DNA of 64,000 nucleotides, taken from Cymbomonas tetramitiformis (taxonomy: Eukaryota > Chlorophyta > Pyramimonadophyceae > Pyramimonadales > Pyramimonadaceae). The notes under the pieces are model-generated. The model saw only the letters and a program-made list of their open reading frames with translations. It was not told the origin of the DNA and searched no databases. Shown here one piece after another: positions 5,221 through 45,451 of this stretch. The stretch spans positions 26,015 through 90,014 of the forward strand of contig LGRX02034765.1 of NCBI GenBank assembly GCA_001247695.2, read 5' to 3'. Made by a program: the position numbers and the translations under genes. Position 1 is the first letter of the stretch. Each line of letters opens with the position of its first letter.

Positions 5221-5323
5221 ATATTCTAAGGCTCGGGGTTTATTCCGGATTAACTTTGGGCCGAAAACTAGATTAAAAATGATAGTGCCTACTTTCGAAT
5301 TAAAAATGACACGTTACATGTCG
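5221..5323 (+). repeat. MULE left target duplication and terminal inverted repeat
   Basis: ATATTCTAA at 5221-5229 is the target duplication. The inverted repeat runs 5230-5323. Its segment 5249-5290 (GATTAACTTTGGGCC through AGTGCCT) matches the right end at about nine of ten positions; the rest is more diverged. The repeat contains internal copies of CTAGATTAA-like motifs. Confidence 0.85.
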
Positions 5324-5481
5324 TCCGCGTATGTCATATAGAGTACGCCCGCGCTGCCATATTGAGCGTCCACTTATGTCACATCGATGCAAATTCGAAT
5401 GTTGCGAGTGGAGTGAGCTGTCCGTTTTCGCGGTATGAATGAATACTCGAAAGGTTTGTGCTCACAAAGGTCTTATACTAA

Positions 5482-8155
5482 ATGGAAACAATGGCTACCG
5501 AAGGTGATATCGAATGGGCTAGTCCCGGTAATTTGAATAATATATATCACGACGATACCGAGGAGGAGGAGGAGGACGAGGAACACGTGACTATGAAGAA
5601 ACGTATTCGAAAGAACCTTATAGATGAGGAAAGTTGGGTATATATATATGCTAGTGTGACCTCGGAAGATCAGTGCCGTGACAAAATAAGAGCCCTTTGC
5701 CCCGAGGGATTTTGCCGAGCCACCACACCCTATACTTCCAAAAAACATGGCGACATTACAACCACCTACCGTTGTTCTAAGAAACTCGCCCACCACTATG
5801 AACTCAGTTTCAAGATTAGAAGTAGGGTTTGCAGTGACGGCATCGAGAGGTTTTCCTTAAGTCAAAAGGGTGCACATACTCACGGGGAGTTCTATGGCAA
5901 GCAACTGGATCCTAAAGTTAAGGAAAAGGTGGTCAACCTCATCTTGGACCGTAAGCAACCGAGACAAATATGGGAAGCACTTCAAAAAGATCCTAAGATG
6001 CCGGCAACCAGCTACAAAACTGTCAAGGCGTTCGTGAAAAATCATCGTGGGGGACTATTAGCGGAGTTCGATATCAAAACCTACTCAGATCTAAAGGAGG
6101 TTGCCCTGAGCCACAATCTATTGTTTTTGCATCGTGCCGACGCTTCTACTAACGGCCATACCGCCGGCATCCTTGCGTTTTTCGACAACGACATCCTTTC
6201 CGCCGACGGCTTCACCCGTTGTGATCGCTTTCCTGCGTCCACCACGTTGCCCCCTCTTCCACATGAAGCCGAGGGCTTGCTAGAGTTGCTTGGCAAATGG
6301 AAGAAGTCCAAATGGAATGAAACCGCTACCACTATGCAGCAGGCTCTCAACGAAAATATTCGGACTATCGGCAACAATGCTTCCGCCCCCTTTTTTCTTG
6401 ACCTACTCAAGAATCTACTTGGGGCAAGTGGGTGGAATTTCAAGAAGAATGCTTTTCACACTCGTGAACTAAACGTGCAAGGTTTCTACAAGAGTTTCAA
6501 GTTACTCATCGAGGACTACGGCGCCCAAGTGAATAGGCGACGGTTCGTGGTGCTTTCTACAACGCTCGAGAAACTAAAGCTATTCGTAGATTTCAACATG
6601 TTGCAACGCGACGATGTCTACAAACTTCTTTGGAATCAATTTCCTGTGGAGACGGGCGGTACCTCCGAGAACCGTCGGTACTCTCTAGGTTACCTCGCCG
6701 TGAAGTCTCACGAAGATGCTATCGCCAGTGAGATCGTGAACACCCTACTCGTGCACGCTATCTATCACTTGGAGGACAAACTGTGGTGCCCACGCACCTT
6801 TGGTCTTGATCACTCCTTTGCCTTTTACAACGCGAACTTGACCTTCCCTGACGTCGTCAGCTGGATGTGCCACACCTTCCACATCCCCCCCCCACCCACA
6901 CGTGGCGAGTTACATCGCTGGAGAGGTCAAACTTCTGCAAGCGATATGCTATGCGCATTGCCAACGCAAGGTCAACGAGAAAAAACACTTCTTTCTCACG
7001 GCCGAAAACTACCAGACCTTCAAGCGTGATGTCGGACTCCTTCGACGCATGTGGGACCCTACAGCAAAGCATGGAGAAGGGGACGCTCTGGCGGACGCCG
7101 CGCTACGCTTGCTGGTCACGAAGTTTGAGGGCAAGGATGAAACTTACATTAACGAGTGGTTCGAGAACTTTTGGTGTGGTAAGTGGGGCACTTGGCGCGA
7201 CGGGTCACTCCCTGCGGGCAAGCCAACCCACAACAACGGTCCTGAGTGCTATCACAACCTCGCCCAAAAGTTCCTGGCAAAGAGAACTTGCTTGCCGTTC
7301 GGACAGTTCGTGTCCGAGGCACTCGTATTTATGCATCGCGAAAGTGTGCGTGACTCGGAAAACCCCCTTCAAGTGTACGATGCCATCGAGCTCCATACGT
7401 GGCGCAAGGGCTTGCTCCTACTTGAAAGTCATGCCCTAGAATACACTATGAAATCTACGGCCAACGATGGTCGTATCGTGTACGTTATGCCCTCTGAGAA
7501 GACCTACAAGTCCCTTGAAGGCATGACTGCTGTGGACAAGAAGAGGGCGCTCGCGACTCAGGCTGCACTTTACATGTCCTTGGTTAAAACTCCTACTGAG
7601 CTACCTCCAACCATTTCTTCCTTCGATGATTTTCAGGAGGCATATTTCTCTTTCAGAATTCTAGAAGAACTCGTCGTTCCCAAGGAGGCCTACTACTACT
7701 ACTCTTGCTCGTGCCATGAATATTTGGTGGCTAAAGTTTGTGAGCATACCTTGGCCTTCGGTGTTTACAAGGAGAAGTTCAAGGCGCCTATCGAGCGGAA
7801 TCTGGACTTGATTGGAAGGCAGCCACAAATCGGTCGCCCCCCTAAGCCACGGCATGCGTTAGTGAGACAGCCAGGTCCTGATGAAAAGGTCTCCTTGACC
7901 AACAAGAGGAAGCTTGCAAAACGTGCAAAACAGGGAGGTGATGCGAGTAACTCGCCTGAGCTAGACTTGGCGTTTGGTTCTCAACAAGCGCCTCCAACCC
8001 TGAAGTGCCAGATCTGTAAGAAAACCAGTCGTGGTGACAAGATGCTTTTGTGCGATATATGTGACAAGGGCTTTCATATTTTCTGCCTGCAGCCTGAGTT
8101 GAAAGAAGTGCCAGTAAGCGATTGGTTTTGCTCTATTTGTATGTATGCTTCCTAG
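5482..8155 (+). CDS. MULE transposase with SWIM and PHD zinc fingers, interrupted by one frameshift
   Basis: The first frame (5482 to about 6893) starts with an acidic stretch, then a Cys/His DNA-binding-like region ending KGAHTHGEFYGKQLDP, then a transposase core. The second frame (about 6894-8155) continues with CYAHCQRKV, the C-x2-H region of MULE transposases, and THNNGPECYHNLAQKF, which carries the probable third acidic residue. A SWIM finger follows (CSCHEYLVAKVCEH), then a basic patch and a C4HC3 PHD finger (CQICKKTSRGDKMLLCDICD to WFCSIC). The frame changes at a run of nine C at 6885-6893; eight C would restore one frame of about 890 codons. It could be a sequencing error or a real mutation. 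The PHD finger suggests chromatin reading, by inference. Confidence 0.82.
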
Positions 8156-8740
8156 ACACATACTGAACACTGTGATCTAGTAGCAAGCTTCCTCGAGAAA
8201 TACTAAACCTTGCACTCCAGTAGCACGTTTCTACAACTACTATATTGATTGTATTTTACAACAACTCTATTTGCAGTGATATGATCGTATTTTGTGTCCT
8301 TGTGCCTATATGTATGCATACCATATATACAAAAGCATGCAATATCACATACAAAGCATACTGAACCTACGTGCAGACTCATCACATATTTCTTGATATA
8401 CATATCCTCGCCTTGTAGGAGTGCATAACATGTATTCCGGCGTGTGGTCGACACGTTGATGTATATTACTATATGATAAGATCAACGTCTCGACCATACG
8501 TCTTGAATTGGTACTCGTACGCGTACTGTACCTGCCATACATTAATACCTCTAGGTGTGTACAGAGCGTGGTGGTCTTAGAAATATTCGAAATATATGTA
8601 TGTAGCTTCGTTCGAAAGTGAGCGCTCTAAACGTTCCGAGCGTGCAGAAATATTTTCAGCAGTGGTATTCAAGTTTATTTATGTTCTTATATTATGTCCT
8701 ATGACTTGGTATGAGAGACAGTTGAGTTTCACTTTGTGCC
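8156..8740. other. Intergenic region inside the MULE
   Basis: No gene is visible. An imperfect direct repeat of about 45 bp lies at 8160-8235: TACTGAACACTGTGATCTAG and TACTAAACCTTGCACTCCAG, each followed by TAGCA. The region is AT-rich and probably holds the transposase 3' end and the promoter of the next gene, but no specific promoter element can be shown. Confidence 0.4.
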
Positions 8741-11155
8741 ATGCATTCAAAAGATATTGAGAAGCCATCAAAAGCCATCAGGCCTCGGAGTGATGTTCTA
8801 CGTGCCTTACTGACAAGAATGCTACAAGTTGAGAGGCAAAATATTAGATGGCAAGTGAATGGCGCAAGGCCAGGATGGTTTCCAGAACATGTGCCGTGGG
8901 ACCTATCAATATTTAAAGCTCTTCCTACAAAAGGTCTAAAGGTAGACGACATAGAGTTCGTTGTAAGAGAGCTTGCAGTAGAGCGGGCGCTTGCAAGGCC
9001 CTTTAGCGATCCTTGCTTCGATTGTTTTCGCCGCGACCTTCCTTTGGACGCTACAGCTAGGAGTGGATTTATCGCTTGGCTCCAAGGCTTCTTGCCTGAC
9101 GCCTTTGCTGAGCACATTCCGAAAGCTGCGCCCATTCCCCAAAAGATCACAGAGTCAGCGGCAGTTGATTTTCTTAGAAAACTTCTATCAGCACCGTGCA
9201 ATGCGCCTGCAGTTGAAGAGTTTTTCGAAACAGGACAACCTCCAGCACAGTTCCAGCAGCTTCAGAATCCAGCTCAGATTCCAGAGAACGTACGCAAGGA
9301 TATGGAAGCACAGCAGAGATATATTGCAGAGTTACAGGGAGAAGTTGAAAAAAGAAGAAACGATATTCAGAAACTAGAGCAAGAAACAGTGCAGCAGTTT
9401 GCAGACTCAGACTCAGACAACACCGAAGAGTTTGTAGGTGTTGAGATGGAATACGATGAGAATAGAGGGGTGTGGGTTCACGATGATGGAGAAGACGACG
9501 CAAGTTCGCAGCAGACGGTGGGCACAAGCAATCAGACGCCTGATAGACCGACAGTATTTGGCAGCCAGCGTGCTTTTGGAGAGTTGGAACAAAACTTGCC
9601 CCAGCATCGTATTCGACTAAGGCCAACTAGTTACAGACCGGCAACCATACGCAGAGTGCCTCCGCGAAAAAAACCACGTTCAGACATTCCAAGGAGCGTG
9701 AACTACAACTGGTTCAATCTCACGTACGCACTCGCCCCTAGAAACAAGAACACCGCTTTTTACCCAACCCATACTTGGCAATACGCTGCTTTGAGGTGCA
9801 TTCTAGGGGAGGTTTTTAAAGGGGAAGTCATATGCGATTACTTGTGCGGCATAGACTCAAGGGTTGAGCTAGAATTCGCGAAGTTTGCACCACGACGCAT
9901 AGTGTTGCGAGATGAAGCGCACGAGGATAGTAGCCGCCGGCTTGACGTTTTGCATGCGCACGTATTTCCTATGGCCGAGGGGAGTATTTGTGTGTCTTCT
10001 CTACCTTACACGAACACCGCCGCATTTCTAGAGCGGCTTCTTTTTTGTGGCGTTAAGGTAGTGATCGTGAAACTCCTCGACTCATACAAGCGAGTCGCAA
10101 ATAGCGACTGCCGGCAAGCATTGGAAGAGTATTTGGTGCTTCGCATTTCTTTAGGCCCTGCTGCTTACCCTCCATACGAGAGCACGTTTGGGCAGCCCGA
10201 ATCTTGGTTTATTTACGTCCCACCAACGCCGGACGCGGACACCGTAAAGCATCAAGTCTACAAGTCGTGCAATGAGTTTCTAGAGAGGTGTAGAGGCACA
10301 CCGCAAGATGCGGAAAGAAAACATTTTCACTTGCTTCAAGTAGAAAGAAGTTTGGACGTGTTTGTGCATGTTTACCCGACACAGAACCTCATAACTTGGG
10401 ACACTCGTGAGCGGAAAATAATTAGCCGAAAGTAACTCTTTATTTATTGGACATGTTTCCTTGTTGCCTTGCCTTGTTGCTTTTGCAGGGTGATGAAGCT
10501 TTTGAAAGGTGTAGAGGAATTCCTCTACACCGTGGAGGATAGTCAGTGCACGAGGTGGCGGGATCCTACCACAGCTAAGTGTACCTGGAGGTGGCAAAGG
10601 AGCACCGGGAGGACCTGCAATGCCTTCGGTGCAGGTCTTGGGATGTTTGACACACCACACAACTTTCTAAGGGGGAAGGGTGTTTGCATGACACCCGTTT
10701 GTGATCGGAAAAGTATCCGACCGTGGTTACTGCAGGTGTACACTATGTTACACCCCGTGATGCAAATTGTAGACCCGGTTTTTGCCGAAGGGGAGCACTA
10801 CTGCCTGCAGGTTGCTCGGACCGACGATCCCAATGCACACGTTGTGCGTAGGCACAAGGAAACCAAAGACATAACCCACCAATACTTGTGTGCACTTGGC
10901 AATTTTTCTGGGGCCACACTCAGGCAGCACAGTGAGGGGGGTGGGAAGCACTTTGACATGAACACGCAATGCCGCATAGTCCGTATGGACGGGAGGATAG
11001 ATCACGAGGTGGTATTCCAAAACTTCAAGGGGGTTCGTTTTGGTTTAGTGTTCTACAAAAGTTTTGACCCAAAGATCCAAGCACCGACTCCGAAGCTACA
11101 CCGGCCGAGGTATGTGTGGCCAGTAGAGGAGGAGGTGGCTTCAGATGAGGACTAG
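8741..11155 (+). CDS. Spliced MULE cargo gene: degenerate methyltransferase-like domain fused to 2-oxoglutarate/Fe(II) dioxygenase-like domain
   Basis: Exon 1 (8741-10431) and exon 2 (10489-11155) are joined by a 57-nt intron that starts GTAACT and ends TTGCTTTTGCAG; reading phase is kept and the apparent stop at 10433 falls inside the intron. The product is about 785 residues. The N-terminus has NGARPGWFPEHVPW. A coiled-coil stretch and an acidic region follow. Residues around 330-490 resemble a Rossmann methyltransferase: ICDYLCGIDSR in place of motif I and VSSLPYTN in place of NPPY, so catalysis is doubtful. Exon 2 has HKETKDITHQYLCALGNFSG, DGRIDHEV and GVRFGLVFY, fitting the H-x-D/E, distal H and R of 2-oxoglutarate dioxygenases, possibly TET/JBP-like. 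Substrate is unknown. Confidence 0.68.
10432..10488 (+). other. Predicted 57-nt intron
   Basis: The segment begins GTAACT and ends GCTTTTGCAG after a pyrimidine-rich tract. Removing it joins codon AA|G across the junction (phase 2) and makes one continuous frame from 8741 to 11155. Confidence 0.7.
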
Positions 11156-11240
11156 GTAGCTAAGAATCTTGTACAGAACTAACCCTAATATGTAAATACC
11201 CATACGCGTATCATAGCATGCATACCTGAAATATATGTTC

Positions 11241-11972
11241 TTAGTCCAGGAAGTGAAGGGAACTTCTTTCCATAGCTTGCCCTTTCATATACGCAAGATA
11301 GTCGAGGTACTCGGTGCGCCAGTGAACTGTTCCGTCTGTTGTAGTTGTGTCCCAAACACACCTCCTGTAGCCAGGGTTATCGGTGCTCACGATATGGGTG
11401 CAACACGTCGAGCATAAAAAAAGTGTAGGCACTCCTTTCATAGCGACGTGCACGTCGGCACCTCGTTTGCAAAAGTGCATAGCCTTGTTACGGTCCACGA
11501 GGAGCTTAGATAGACAACAAGTAACCCGAATAAGGTCTTGAATATTATTGTATCGGGCGACTTGCTCACGGAAGAGTGTCTGGAATAAAGGATAGTCTTG
11601 TGGTGCGATCACCCCCAAGTAGGCATAATCGGGCTCGTAACCCGAAAGAAAGTGACGTTGACACGAGCGGTTGGGGAATACGCCCACGTTCGGCGTAAGA
11701 CCTCCAGCTTTGTTCGCGTATTCCGCCCCAGGCGTATACTCAATGAAGACGTATTCGCCGTCAAAGTTTTCCACGGGACCACCGTGGGCTCTAACCTCGT
11801 CGCGAAACTCGTGCCGACACTTGGAAACACTATTTGGAGTTATGATCTTACTTTCTTTTGGCGACGGATAAAAGTCTGTAAGCTTCCCTTGGTTATACGC
11901 GGGCGTTCCATTGGTTATACGAAGGCGGAGAGACCTTCGGGGAATGCACGCTCGTTTGGGATTTCTAGGCAT
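11241..11972 (-). CDS. Unknown protein with a canonical PIP box (PCNA-interacting peptide)
   Basis: The frame is open from 12026, but the ATG at 11972 (MPRNPKRACIPRRSLRLR) is the likelier start because upstream codons are low-complexity. About 243 residues. Residues 28-35 from that start read QGKLTDFY, an exact match to the PIP consensus Q-x-x-[ILM]-x-x-[FY]-[FY], preceded by a basic stretch. Further on there is C-rich sequence (HFCKRGADVH, LFLCSTCC) that could bind zinc. I recognise no enzymatic domain. It converges on the dioxygenase-like gene with 85 bp between stops and lies inside the MULE. PCNA binding would link the element to replication or repair forks; this is inference. Confidence 0.6.
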   Translation of the reverse strand: MPRNPKRACIPRRSLRLRITNGTPAYNQGKLTDFYPSPKESKIITPNSVSKCRHEFRDEVRAHGGPVENFDGEYVFIEYTPGAEYANKAGGLTPNVGVFPNRSCQRHFLSGYEPDYAYLGVIAPQDYPLFQTLFREQVARYNNIQDLIRVTCCLSKLLVDRNKAMHFCKRGADVHVAMKGVPTLFLCSTCCTHIVSTDNPGYRRCVWDTTTTDGTVHWRTEYLDYLAYMKGQAMERSSLHFLD

Positions 11973-12129
11973 AATTTGAGACGAATGAATATATATATGT
12001 ATGTGAATGGAAATACGAAAGAGCAAAAGAGAGCAAGAGAGCGAGAGAATGTCCGGCGAAATGCTTCGGTTCGTTTAAATGGTCGGCATTTTGGTGGTGA
12101 TGACAATCGAGCGGGAAGACATGCGACTG

Positions 12130-12231
12130 CGACATGACACACCCAAACTTAATCTAGAATAAGGCACTGTCATTCTTAATCTAGTTTTGGGCCCAAAGTT
12201 AATCTAGAAATAACCTTTTGCCATATTCTAA
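12130..12231 (-). repeat. MULE right terminal inverted repeat and target duplication
   Basis: The inverted repeat runs 12130-12222 and reads inward as GGCAAAAGGTTATTTCTAG then GATTAACTTTGGGCC. It has three internal copies of TTAATCTAG. The target duplication ATATTCTAA occupies 12223-12231 and exactly matches 5221-5229. Confidence 0.85.
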
Positions 12232-12306: not shown

Positions 12307-12600
12307 ATGAATGCTTTTTTTTGTTTTTTCTTGATTTTTGTGGCATATGGGAGTGACCAACGCACCTTTCATGATGACGTAATTTCTCTTTGTGAGTGGG
12401 TGCTAAAGAGAGTTGGCTCGATAAGGCAGGTGGAGAAAAAAGTCAACGAAAGAAGCCGGAGGGCTGGGTTCGTTCTTGCACGAAACCACCCTCCTACAAC
12501 CAAGCTGTCAAGAGGACGGTGCGTTGTGTGCAAAAAAACATCCTGGCATAGCCCGAGGATGCTCAGAGTGTGAGGTGATTCTTTGCGATGCCAAGTGTTG
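12307..12600 (+). pseudogene. Probable piggyBac-type transposase C-terminal Cys-rich domain, relic
   Basis: The frame from 12307 ends in SRGRCVVCKK. After a run of seven A, the sequence continues in another frame with ARGCSECEVILCDAKCWKRHHEDI. Together these give C-x2-C ... C-x2-C ... C-x3-C ... H-H, the spacing of the C-terminal Cys-rich domain of piggyBac-derived transposases. The catalytic core is not visible nearby. It could instead be another small zinc finger; the match is by pattern only. Confidence 0.4.
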
Positions 12601-14181
12601 GAAACGTCACCACGAAGACATATAATAGCCCACCGATATTTTCAACAGAGCGACACACAGGGTGTGCAGGTACTGTTCACGCGATCGGCGATGAGCGAGG
12701 TTCGCGTGAGAAAACGTTGGCTCAGATGCAGAAGCAAATCGGATAGGAATCTTACAATGTACCTTGCTTTGGAGTGAACGCTTGCAACAGTTTTTTTAGT
12801 TACCCACATACTAAGTGTAAGACATATTGCACTGCCTCCTAGCCTCATACCTCCGCCCTTATGCAGCATTCTCGCTGAAAAATGTGGTACAGAAGTGTCT
12901 GAGAACAGATGTAAGTGTAATCTGAGTGAGGGATGAGGAATCTTGGGGGAAGCACCTCAAACTTTAAAATCAGAATATGTATGTATCTGATATGTAGGAG
13001 TTTACAACTTGTTGGGGGCATTGGGTAGCACAGAGAAGGGCACCGAAACCCTAACGCGCAGTGCCCACAACAGCTAAAATATACCACTTTCACACCCTAC
13101 TCTTAGGAAGGATAAAATCTGTTTTTCTTGGTCTAGCAAGCTACACTCGGTAATAGGATATCATTGTTACATCATATTGAGTATGTAGAATCATTTTTAG
13201 CAGATTATGATAACATAGATGAGTAGCATAACATATTTGCTACAGGAATTATCCTCTAAAGCACTTCAAAAATTCATGCAACCCGATATTCATGCATGTA
13301 TTTCTTTGTCGTTAATGGTCGGATTAATATGTTCGATAGCTCAATTTATTGGTTTAGAAGCGACGCGTAAGCCTGCGAAATTTGGTGATAAGAGCATAAG
13401 TACTTCAAAAGATATGAACCCAAACCCAAACCCTATCGAATTTACGTGTAAAATGCAGCAAATCCTTGTGGCAACTTAGGGGTTAACTACCATCGTTTCA
13501 CTGGCTCACCCCCATTTTCCACTGTTTTCATTGCCCCCCCCCGCGACCGTGATTTCCTATAACGATTTCGAGGTCCCAAATGTTGGACGATTATTTGCTT
13601 TTTGGCATTTCACAAATAATGACCTCGCATGACATCGCCGGATGTCAGTCGCGACAGGAGCCAATGAAATCGCTGCGATCAACACATTTGCTTTCCCAAG
13701 TTTCGATGTAGCACAAGCCTTACTTCGTTCACTCGACTGTTGATCGCCGACTTTCCTTCCATCATCAGTGATCACCGTCATTCAGGAGGGATCGTCCGAT
13801 CTCACTCCCCGGATCGAGGAAATGAAGGATCACGAAGTGGCTGTTCACCTCCACGTCCAGCTTCGGAGTCCAAGTGTCGCAGGGTGTTGCTCTTAAGTCG
13901 GAAATTGGTGAAAATACTTCACTTTTCCTACCTGCCGACGATTGCTGCGTCTTTCTCCTCCGTTTCCTAACACAATTTTGATGTGAAATGAGACTTTCAG
14001 CCCCCATAAGGTGGGGGGCAGTCACACTCTCTAATCACCCCTTGCCCCGATGTCATTTATTTGTCGTACCTGACACATTTGTCCATTTGCTCGATCCACC
14101 GTCTGGGGGGTTGCCATTAATCGTATCACATGTTAAATTCTTACAAACTAAACTTTGTCCAAAACTACTCATATGTTTATA
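12601..14181. other. Intergenic stretch without a recognisable gene
   Basis: Only short frames occur (for example 13219-13479 on the forward strand, 86 codons, no recognisable domain). Composition is AT-rich to 13500, then more mixed with homopolymer C near 13540. I see no RNA gene. Confidence 0.4.
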
Positions 14182-43582: not shown

Positions 43583-43655
43583 AGCCTGAGTAGCTCAAAC
43601 GGCAGAGCGCTTGCCCGGCATGCGAGAGGTCCGGGGATCGATCCCCGGCCTAGCT
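43583..43655 (+). tRNA. tRNA-like module, copy 1
   Basis: A-box TAGCTCAAACGG, anticodon-type stem CTTGC/GCGAG around CCGGCAT (GGC, Ala-type, but C where U33 is expected), and T-arm CCGGGGATCGATCCCCGG. The acceptor strands pair poorly. Confidence 0.35.
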
Positions 43656-44141
43656 CACCTTTTTCGGGCTTCTGGTCTAGCGGTACAGTTTCTGTTTCCC
43701 CACGACGTAGACCAAAAATGAAAGGTGCTGCGCTGTTTGTGTCCCGACATGAACACGGATTGCTCAAGCACACCACACTAACTCGGACAGTTCATTGGTC
43801 TCTCTCGCATCGACCCTGATTTGCCCTACCGCGGTCACAGTGTCTCGCCACGCGCGACCCTCGCGAAGGGAATCACAAAATGCTCATTTCCCATCGATCT
43901 AGATCTACAATTTTTATGCTAATGTTGACCTCCAGCAAACCATACTCATGGAGGATACAATCGTGCCGCACAGGCCGCGCGCCCCCAACAGTCGCGCCGC
44001 CCATAGCCGCGCGATGCCCCGAGAGAGCGCACCGCAACGGCAGATTGGGGGAAAAGTTGTATCCTTCGTGTTTCACTCTTCGCCGCCTACGTGGCACCGT
44101 GGGGAGTCAGTACTCTGTACCGCACTAGAATCGCCATCAAT

Positions 44142-44213
44142 AGCCAGAGTAGCTCAACGGCAGAGCGCTCGTCCGGTATGCGAGAGGTCACGGGCTCGAT
44201 CCCGGCCTGGCTC
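44142..44213 (+). tRNA. tRNA-like module, copy 2
   Basis: AGCCAG pairs with CTGGCT, GCTC with GAGC, and CTCGT with GCGAG around CCGGTAT (GGT, Thr-type). A-box TAGCTCAACGG is complete. The T-arm CGGGCTCGATCCCG has a 6-nt loop, and position 33 is C, so it may be a pseudo-tRNA or tRNA-derived repeat. Confidence 0.38.
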
Positions 44214-44553
44214 ACCTTTTTCGGGCTTCTGGTCTAGCGGTACAGTTTCTGTTTCCCCATGAGGTTATGGGCTCTTACCACGCTTCCACTGCGCAGGTGT
44301 GACGCCGGCAGCTGGTTGTGGTTGTGCCACGTAGACACTTCAGAGTGAGGTTGTGTCATGGAGGATACAATCGCGTCGCACAGGCCGCGCGCCCCCAACA
44401 GTCGCGCCGCACAAAGCCGCGCGATGCCCCGACAGAGAGCGCACCGCAACGGCAGATTGGGGGAAAAGTTGTATCCTTCGTGTTTCACTCTTCGCCGCCT
44501 ACGTGGCACCGTGGGGAGTCAGTACTCTGTACCGCACCAGAATCGCCATCAAT

Positions 44554-44625
44554 AGTCAGAGTAGCTCAACGGCAGAGCGCTCGTCCGGTATGCGAGAGGT
44601 CACGGGCTCGATCCCGGCCTGGCTC
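44554..44625 (+). tRNA. tRNA-like module, copy 3
   Basis: As copy 2, but the 5' strand reads AGTCAGAG, weakening one acceptor pair to G-U type. Confidence 0.33.
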
Positions 44626-44967
44626 ACCTTTTTCGGGCTTCTGGTCTAGCGGTACAGTTTCTGTTTCCCCATGAGGTTATGGGCTCTTACCACGCTTCCA
44701 CTGCGCAGGTGTGACGCCGGCAGCTGGTAGTGGTTGTGCCACGTAGACACGCTTCAGAGTGAGGTTGTGTCATGGAGGATACAATCGTGCCGCACAGGCC
44801 GCGCGCCCCCAACAGTCGCGCCGCCCATAGCCGCGCGATGCCCCGACAGAGAGCGCACCGCAACGGCAGATTGGGGAAAAAGTTGTATCCTTCGTGTTTC
44901 ACTCTTCGCCGCCTACGTGGCACCGTGGGGAGTCAGTACTCTGTACCGCACCAGGATCGCCATCAAT

Positions 44968-45039
44968 AGCCAGAGTAGCTCAACGGCTTCGCGCTCGTCC
45001 GGTATGCGAGAGGTCACGGGCTCGATCCCGGCCTGGCTC
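44968..45039 (+). tRNA. tRNA-like module, copy 4, damaged
   Basis: As copy 2, but the D-arm reads GGCTTCGCG instead of GGCAGAGCG, which breaks the D-stem. Probably non-functional. Confidence 0.28.
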
Positions 45040-45379
45040 ACCTTTTTCGGGCTTCTGGTCTAGCGGTACAGTTTCTGTTTCCCCATGAGGTTATGGGCTC
45101 TTACCACGCTTCCACTGCGCAGGTGTGACGCCGGCAGCTGGTTGTGGTTGTGCCACGTAGACACTTCAGAGTGAGGTTGTGGCATGAAGGATACAATCGT
45201 GCCGCACAGGCCGCACGCCCCCAACAGTCGCGCCGCCCATAGCCGCGCGATGCCCCAACAGAGAGCGCACCGCAACGGCAGATTGGGGGAAAAGTTGTAT
45301 CCTTCGTGTTTCACTCTTCGCCGCCTACGTGGCACCGTGGGGAGTCAGTACTCTGTACCGCACCAGACTCGCCATCAAT

Positions 45380-45451
45380 AGCCAGAGTAGCTCAACGGCA
45401 GAGCGCTCGTCCGGTATGCGAGAGGTCACGGGCTCGATCCCGGGCTGGCTC
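45380..45451 (+). tRNA. tRNA-like module, copy 5
   Basis: As copy 2, with CCGGGCTGGCT at the 3' side. Confidence 0.36.

Follow-up and report, generated by a model that had tools for sequence, protein, structure and literature searches.

Some fungal DNA transposons, termed TET+, carry a dioxygenase of the TET/JBP type that depends on 2-oxoglutarate (2OG), and an escape from methylation-based silencing has been proposed for them (Kojima 2025, PMC12730594). Here we describe a stretch of 64,000 nucleotides from the green alga Cymbomonas tetramitiformis (contig LGRX02034765.1, positions 26,015 to 90,014; hereafter the window), in which positions 5230-12222 form one 6993-bp unit that starts with GGC and ends with GCC. 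The unit belongs to an autonomous-type Mutator-like transposon (MULE) family of 6.99 kb with 9-10 bp target-site duplications, and the family is recently mobile. Next to the transposase it contains two open reading frames (ORFs), ORF2 and ORF3, which probably constitute one spliced fusion gene, and a smaller frame, ORF4. Judged from the sequences compared, these genes look like an old module that stands beside diverged transposases, not like freshly captured host cargo. We hold with even confidence that MULEs keep them as a DNA-modification, anti-silencing module, which would act through the spliced fusion and ORF4.

Over both strands, the window has exactly two occurrences of the 9-bp sequence ATATTCTAA, and these lie at the borders of the unit, as the original prediction had it. 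The terminal inverted repeats are of MULE type, with matches at 49 of 60 terminal positions between the left end and the reverse complement of the right end. The extent of about 93 bp given earlier for the repeats was right, but the repeats are diverged (67 of 92 aligned positions match over the terminal 93 bp). Without gaps, the ends match at 52/67 positions, against 34 for the best of 200,000 random pairs of window segments. We then searched the alga's own assembly (851.7 Mb, 25,745 contigs) with both ends and obtained at least 40 matches for each, the window included; since 40 of 202 (left end) and 40 of 196 (right end) first-look candidates were scored, these copy numbers are lower bounds. 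Twenty of the 39 other left-end places were retrieved, and they comprise six full-length copies, 11 deleted copies with both ends and three partial ones. The seven full-length copies, including that of the window, are 99.0-99.8% identical, and each lies at its own site within a perfect duplication, 9 bp in six of them and 10 bp in L011 (six flagged by script, that of L011 read by eye), all within the 8-11 bp range of MULEs. The deleted copies measure 0.7-2.4 kb and all have 9-10 bp duplications, seen by script in six, by eye in three (10 bp) and after shifting the end to the final GCC in two, L009 and L010, which have common flanks. An extra copy seen at C15029:75490-77930 includes the right end, ORF4, the dioxygenase and most of the methyltransferase domain. 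We attribute this pattern to recent transposition and not to decay. The ends, the duplication and the copies at separate sites thus bear out the single MULE-type insertion that had been predicted, along with the further copies sharing its termini. One full-length copy, L022 (C15989), has all four frames open, and a 1.8-kb insert separates its ORF4 from its right end.

The gene set recurs well outside these close copies. Searches of the assembly gave at least 151 matches for ORF3 (the best 150 of 720 candidates were scored), at least 150 for the methyltransferase domain (best 150 of 399) and at least 150 for ORF4 (best 150 of 494), and all three sets of matches fall into several identity classes, the window belonging to class A. 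In the class B copy L029, the transposase is 57 and 51% identical (two frames), the fusion 57% and ORF4 51%; in the class D copy L031, the corresponding values are 36% for the transposase, 33% for the N-terminal domain of ORF2, 41% for the dioxygenase and 24% for ORF4. The order of the genes is that of class A in both. For classes B and D no left end was located; the right end of each class is sharply defined between two copies. In the comparison of class A with class B, every part has reached saturation at synonymous sites, and nonsynonymous divergence (dN) is 0.13 in the dioxygenase, 0.22 in the methyltransferase domain, 0.36-0.44 in the transposase, 0.37 in ORF4, 0.44 in the first 170 codons of ORF2 and 0.57 in the linker. 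All four reading frames were thus under purifying selection between the two classes, with the dioxygenase as the best conserved part of the set. Among the seven class A copies, the ratio of nonsynonymous to synonymous polymorphism (pN/pS) is 0.31 in one part of the fusion gene, 0.38 in the other and 0.64-0.70 in the transposase. Since the same order is found in families whose transposases are 36-57% identical, with saturated synonymous sites and a constrained dioxygenase, we conclude that the set is not random cargo. The suggestion that the genes were captured by this element is disfavoured, as the module recurs in the same order beside diverged transposases and its parts are also found in other contexts.

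The features of the element are as follows.

5221..5229, + strand: left target-site duplication ATATTCTAA, one of just two occurrences in the window
5230..5322, + strand: left terminal inverted repeat, strong across the outermost 60-67 bp
5482..8155, + strand: transposase gene (frames 5482-7029 and 6902-8155; frame broken in the window copy)
6607..6624, + strand: proposed first catalytic Asp region RDDVYK (DDE by motif)
6805..6825, + strand: proposed second catalytic Asp region LDHSFAF (by motif)
7232..7258, + strand: proposed catalytic Glu region NNGPECYHN (by motif)
7706..7747, + strand: SWIM-type finger C-x-C-x8-C-x-H (pattern, no Pfam match)
8006..8140, + strand: PHD finger (Pfam PF00628, E 6.4e-12)
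8741..10431, + strand: proposed exon 1 of the fusion gene, with N-terminal domain, linker and methyltransferase domain
9701..10431, + strand: methyltransferase-fold domain, with SLPY inside SSLPY at 9995-10009
10432..10488, + strand: proposed 57-nt phase-2 GT-AG intron (same acceptor in L057)
10489..11155, + strand: proposed exon 2, 2OG/Fe(II) dioxygenase domain
10850-10861, 10997-11011 and 11033-11047, + strand: stretches within which HKE, H and R of the predicted dioxygenase active site lie
11241..11972, - strand: ORF4 (243 aa, rich in Cys/His), in convergent orientation towards the fusion gene
11868..11891, - strand: PIP-box-like QGKLTDFY in ORF4 (shuffle rate 2.8%)
12130..12222, - strand: right terminal inverted repeat (from the comparison of the ends)
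12223..12231, + strand: right target-site duplication ATATTCTAA, second occurrence in the window

The transposase frame of the window breaks at a C homopolymer, and it is open over 889 aa in L018, L020 and L022. Three acidic motif regions are kept between transposases that are 37% identical. The motifs RDD-YK, DH-AF..FP..C-AHC and N-xx-E are common to the class A and class D transposases, and we take them for a putative MULE DDE core; the Pfam MULE model gave no match to the L020 transposase at E<=10. The transposase ends in a PHD finger at its C terminus, and this part of the predicted SWIM/PHD transposase was confirmed by Pfam. The SWIM part stands as a pattern, present in classes A and B and with Cys in place of His in class D, and the Pfam SWIM model did not match the class A transposase.

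In the DNA, ORF2 (8741-10435) and ORF3 (10493-11155) are separate frames. The 57 nt from 10432 to 10488, GTAACT...TTTTGCAG, would, if an intron, join them in phase 2, and it is because of this proposed GT-AG intron that we read the two frames as a fusion of methyltransferase and dioxygenase. The acceptor and the sequence continuing from it are the same in the class B copy L057 as in the window, and P0081, a predicted host protein, combines the last part of a related methyltransferase domain with a dioxygenase, the SLPY part lying outside the gene model. In the predicted structures, the methyltransferase domain adopts a Rossmann methyltransferase fold, and its nearest folds include the rRNA N6-adenine enzymes METTL5, KsgA and DIMT1; on these models the domain would be of the N6-adenine type. 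Its SLPY motif is invariant in 9/9 aligned rows, and a DLPY form is seen in the N6_N4 Pfam match of L033. The dioxygenase is predicted to form a 2OG/Fe(II) double-stranded beta-helix, with FTO and AlkB types tied among the fold matches and TET/JBP not set apart from AlkB, FTO and PHD2, and a viral structure library returned 2OG oxygenases of a general kind, many of them labelled as AlkB type. The H-x-D/E ... H ... R active site is intact in 14/14 rows of alignment A3, E replacing D in classes A, B and C. Searches by sequence were negative: for the window's ORF2, ORF3 and ORF4, neither a methyltransferase nor an oxygenase was matched in Pfam (E<=10), and PHROGs (E<=1) returned no match with a name; ORF2 as sole query retrieved no protein at E<=0.001 from the 8000 candidates that were scored; the sequences of ORF2 and ORF3 had no credible counterpart in the PDB; and viral_contigs, when scanned with the alignment of oxygenases, yielded 45 pattern matches and no confirmed relative. 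The methyltransferase-like and dioxygenase-like folds expected from the first look were thus recovered by structure prediction but not by Pfam.

The Cys/His residues of ORF4 are conserved. The PIP box predicted for this protein is present as QGKLTDFY in the window, L011, L013 and L018, as QGKLTYFY in L022, and as QRKVSDFY in L029 and L057, the two class B copies that were read (the frames read for L056 and L023 are without an N terminus). Shuffled ORF4 yields such a motif in 2.8% of cases. We therefore regard the motif as suggestive for classes A and B, and it is not supported as a general feature of ORF4, as none was found beyond these two. The idea that the protein binds PCNA is accordingly weak, with a PIP box in two element families and none in the distant L031 (class D) and L058, in which the N-termini were read. 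In the open-licence papers searched, PCNA and the PIP box came up together with transposition for LINE-1.

The dioxygenase family is also met outside the MULEs. Polinton-like loci are numerous in the C. tetramitiformis genome (PMC10675990), and one locus of each virus-like class of ORF3 matches was retrieved with its surroundings. In L032 (C494:4500-11800), a C5-type methyltransferase (PF00145, E 2.9e-6) directly adjoins a 325-aa dioxygenase; in L033 (C2570:53500-60500), an N6/N4-type methyltransferase (PF01555, E 5.1e-28) directly adjoins one of 318 aa; and in the metagenomic protein P0026, a Dam methyltransferase (PF05869, E 1.8e-20) is fused to the same dioxygenase family. A primase-helicase-like protein of L032 has D5_N and DUF5906 matches under their cut-offs, and we read L032 and L033 as polinton-like loci, a call made from sub-threshold D5-type matches and gene content only. 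Many ORF3 matches of similar score and frame length to these two are among those listed. With SLPY included, four types of methyltransferase are found paired with a single oxygenase family. This argues for an oxygenase that acts on methylated bases. In a 31-row oxygenase tree (midpoint root; L030 and L058/P0081 are long branches), classes A-D form a clade with P0002 and P0055 (100/99), apart from the virus-like and other metagenomic sequences. These separate clades lend no support to the idea that the dioxygenase was recently captured from virus-like loci resident in the genome. The ORF3 alignment A2 used 11 of 20 short stretches; L041 and L049 were left out for an in-frame stop and the other seven as near-duplicates.

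Two further loci hold parts of the set. L030 has the N-terminal domain, the dioxygenase and ORF4, and its frame L030:5186-5833 agrees in its letters with the predicted protein CYMTET_30629. In L058 (C17208:229700-236200), ORF4 is 32%, the methyltransferase 28% and the dioxygenase 28% identical; this trio may ride on another kind of element.

Of the roles we considered for the module, the simplest, an escape from or a rewriting of silencing marks, is best supported by the comparisons above. The transposase, with its DDE, SWIM and PHD parts, would cut and paste the element. The methyltransferase domain, if of N6-adenine type, would methylate the exocyclic amino group of a base, and/or the dioxygenase domain would oxidise a methylated base, and the epigenetic state of the element DNA would be altered so as to spare it from silencing or to have it recognised as self. 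The small ORF4 protein would be a partner that binds DNA or protein; in two families it may serve to dock the complex on PCNA, by which copies fresh from replication would be treated. Several observations weigh against an anti-silencing module of this composition. The methyltransferase and dioxygenase frames of L058 abut with no clear intron, and no A-type transposase is recognisable in its 6.5 kb. The mean pLDDT (predicted local distance difference test) of the ORF2 model is 52 over the whole chain, the Foldseek list for the methyltransferase also has the class I enzymes CbiT and RumA, and motif IV is SLPY, not NPPY/DPPY. L031 is without the methyltransferase part between N-terminal domain and dioxygenase, and the retrieved stretch of L030 gave neither a methyltransferase nor a transposase match; because of these two loci, the methyltransferase, the writer, is dispensable. 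The ORF4 frame is split in L019 and L020, the PIP box is missing from L031 and L058 as noted, and among the seven A copies pN/pS for ORF4 is 1.58 on 9 changes, i.e., a weak constraint; set against these values, the A-B dN makes a long-term constraint evident, but not a current one on ORF4. Lastly, no retrieved copy has all four frames open without also being interrupted.

A bolder version, which we consider unlikely, is that a eukaryotic transposon lineage encodes one bifunctional write-and-oxidise enzyme, which methylates a base of the transposon's DNA and then converts it to an oxidised (hyper)modified base. Brought to replication forks by a partner that docks on PCNA, this enzyme would make a transposon-specific self-mark, exchanged in the course of evolution with endogenous virus-like elements.

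We give limited but real weight to the alternative that the methyltransferase is a dead or DNA-reading relic and that the dioxygenase alone erases host methyl marks in a TET-like, anti-silencing manner. The fungal TET+ transposons are a precedent (PMC12730594), the dioxygenase is the slowest-evolving part and persists in L031 without the methyltransferase, and the SLPY in place of NPPY would suit a dead enzyme. The methyltransferase domain is, however, constrained (dN 0.22 vs 0.57 in the linker), SLPY, DxxCG and KLLxS are kept in families about 28% identical, and about 100 of the 150 methyltransferase matches listed are further relatives at 30-40% identity. That the module modifies RNA, either element transcripts or rRNA, and not DNA is quite improbable to us, even though the nearest methyltransferase folds include the rRNA enzymes named above and the dioxygenase fold ties with those of FTO and AlkB types. 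We have similarly little confidence in a viral-type hypermodification of self-DNA common to polinton-like viruses, in which methylation and then oxidation would evade host nucleases or sensors. The same dioxygenase family does adjoin DNA methyltransferases in L032 and L033, with many class matches listed, but the class A-D dioxygenases form their own 100/99 clade, transposon DNA stays in the chromosome, and the two loci are virus-like by the sub-threshold matches and gene content described. Finally, host genes carried as passengers without function for the element are very improbable, for although MULEs are known to capture genes (PMC6446971), the recurring gene order in families 36-57% identical in the transposase and the strong A-B constraint disfavour this.

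Two other features of the window lie outside the element. In the region 12307-12640, the last part of the frame 12307-12573 is a stretch with Cys (RCVVCKKTSWHSPR...), which we take to resemble the C-terminal finger of a piggyBac transposase; Pfam gave no support. On the + strand at 43584-45450, four weak tRNA matches fall within 1.9 kb (29.1-33.9 bits vs a 29-bit threshold), perhaps a tRNA-derived repeat.

If the anti-silencing module is real, transposon-encoded base-modification enzymes, known from fungi, would extend to green algae as well as to MULEs, with an oxygenase and a methyltransferase paired in one gene. One alga would have one oxygenase family both with transposons and in virus-like loci, beside differing methyltransferase classes, and chemical self-marking by mobile DNA would become directly testable in one sequenced organism. 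We found no algal DNA transposon with a dioxygenase and an adenine methyltransferase in the open-licence literature, where absence is weak evidence, and the papers listed there for DNA transposons together with an adenine methyltransferase and target-site duplications are, by their titles, on other subjects; as far as that literature shows, the superfamily (MULE), the kingdom and the writer-oxidiser fusion are new.

The fungal TET+ elements are likewise DNA transposons carrying a 2OG dioxygenase, but their hosts are fungi, and the abstract of PMC12730594 does not name MuDR/MULE among their lineages. The algal oxygenase, in contrast, has no Pfam Tet_JBP match, is linked to a methyltransferase domain and has ORF4 as its companion. 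VANDAL MULEs with VANC also have an accessory gene against epigenetic silencing, VANC being described as sequence-specific in its anti-silencing, whereas the accessory gene here has predicted enzyme folds (PMC6446971, PMC12730594, PMC10398659). Phytophthora MULEs carry a chromatin-modifying enzyme too, in their case a SET histone methyltransferase and not a putative base methyltransferase-dioxygenase (PMC6446971). Rehavkus elements, which we liken by description only, share the 9-bp duplications and a PHD finger with the transposase, but have one ORF and a minisatellite and are reported from insects and annelids (PMC6446971). Phage and polinton-like virus cassettes resemble the algal module in that a dioxygenase, of TET/JBP type in the cassettes, adjoins a DNA methyltransferase (for phage, PMC12730594), and a homologous oxygenase is indeed found in virus-like loci of the same genome; these cassettes differ in having other methyltransferase families, separate genes and an oxygenase of a separate clade.

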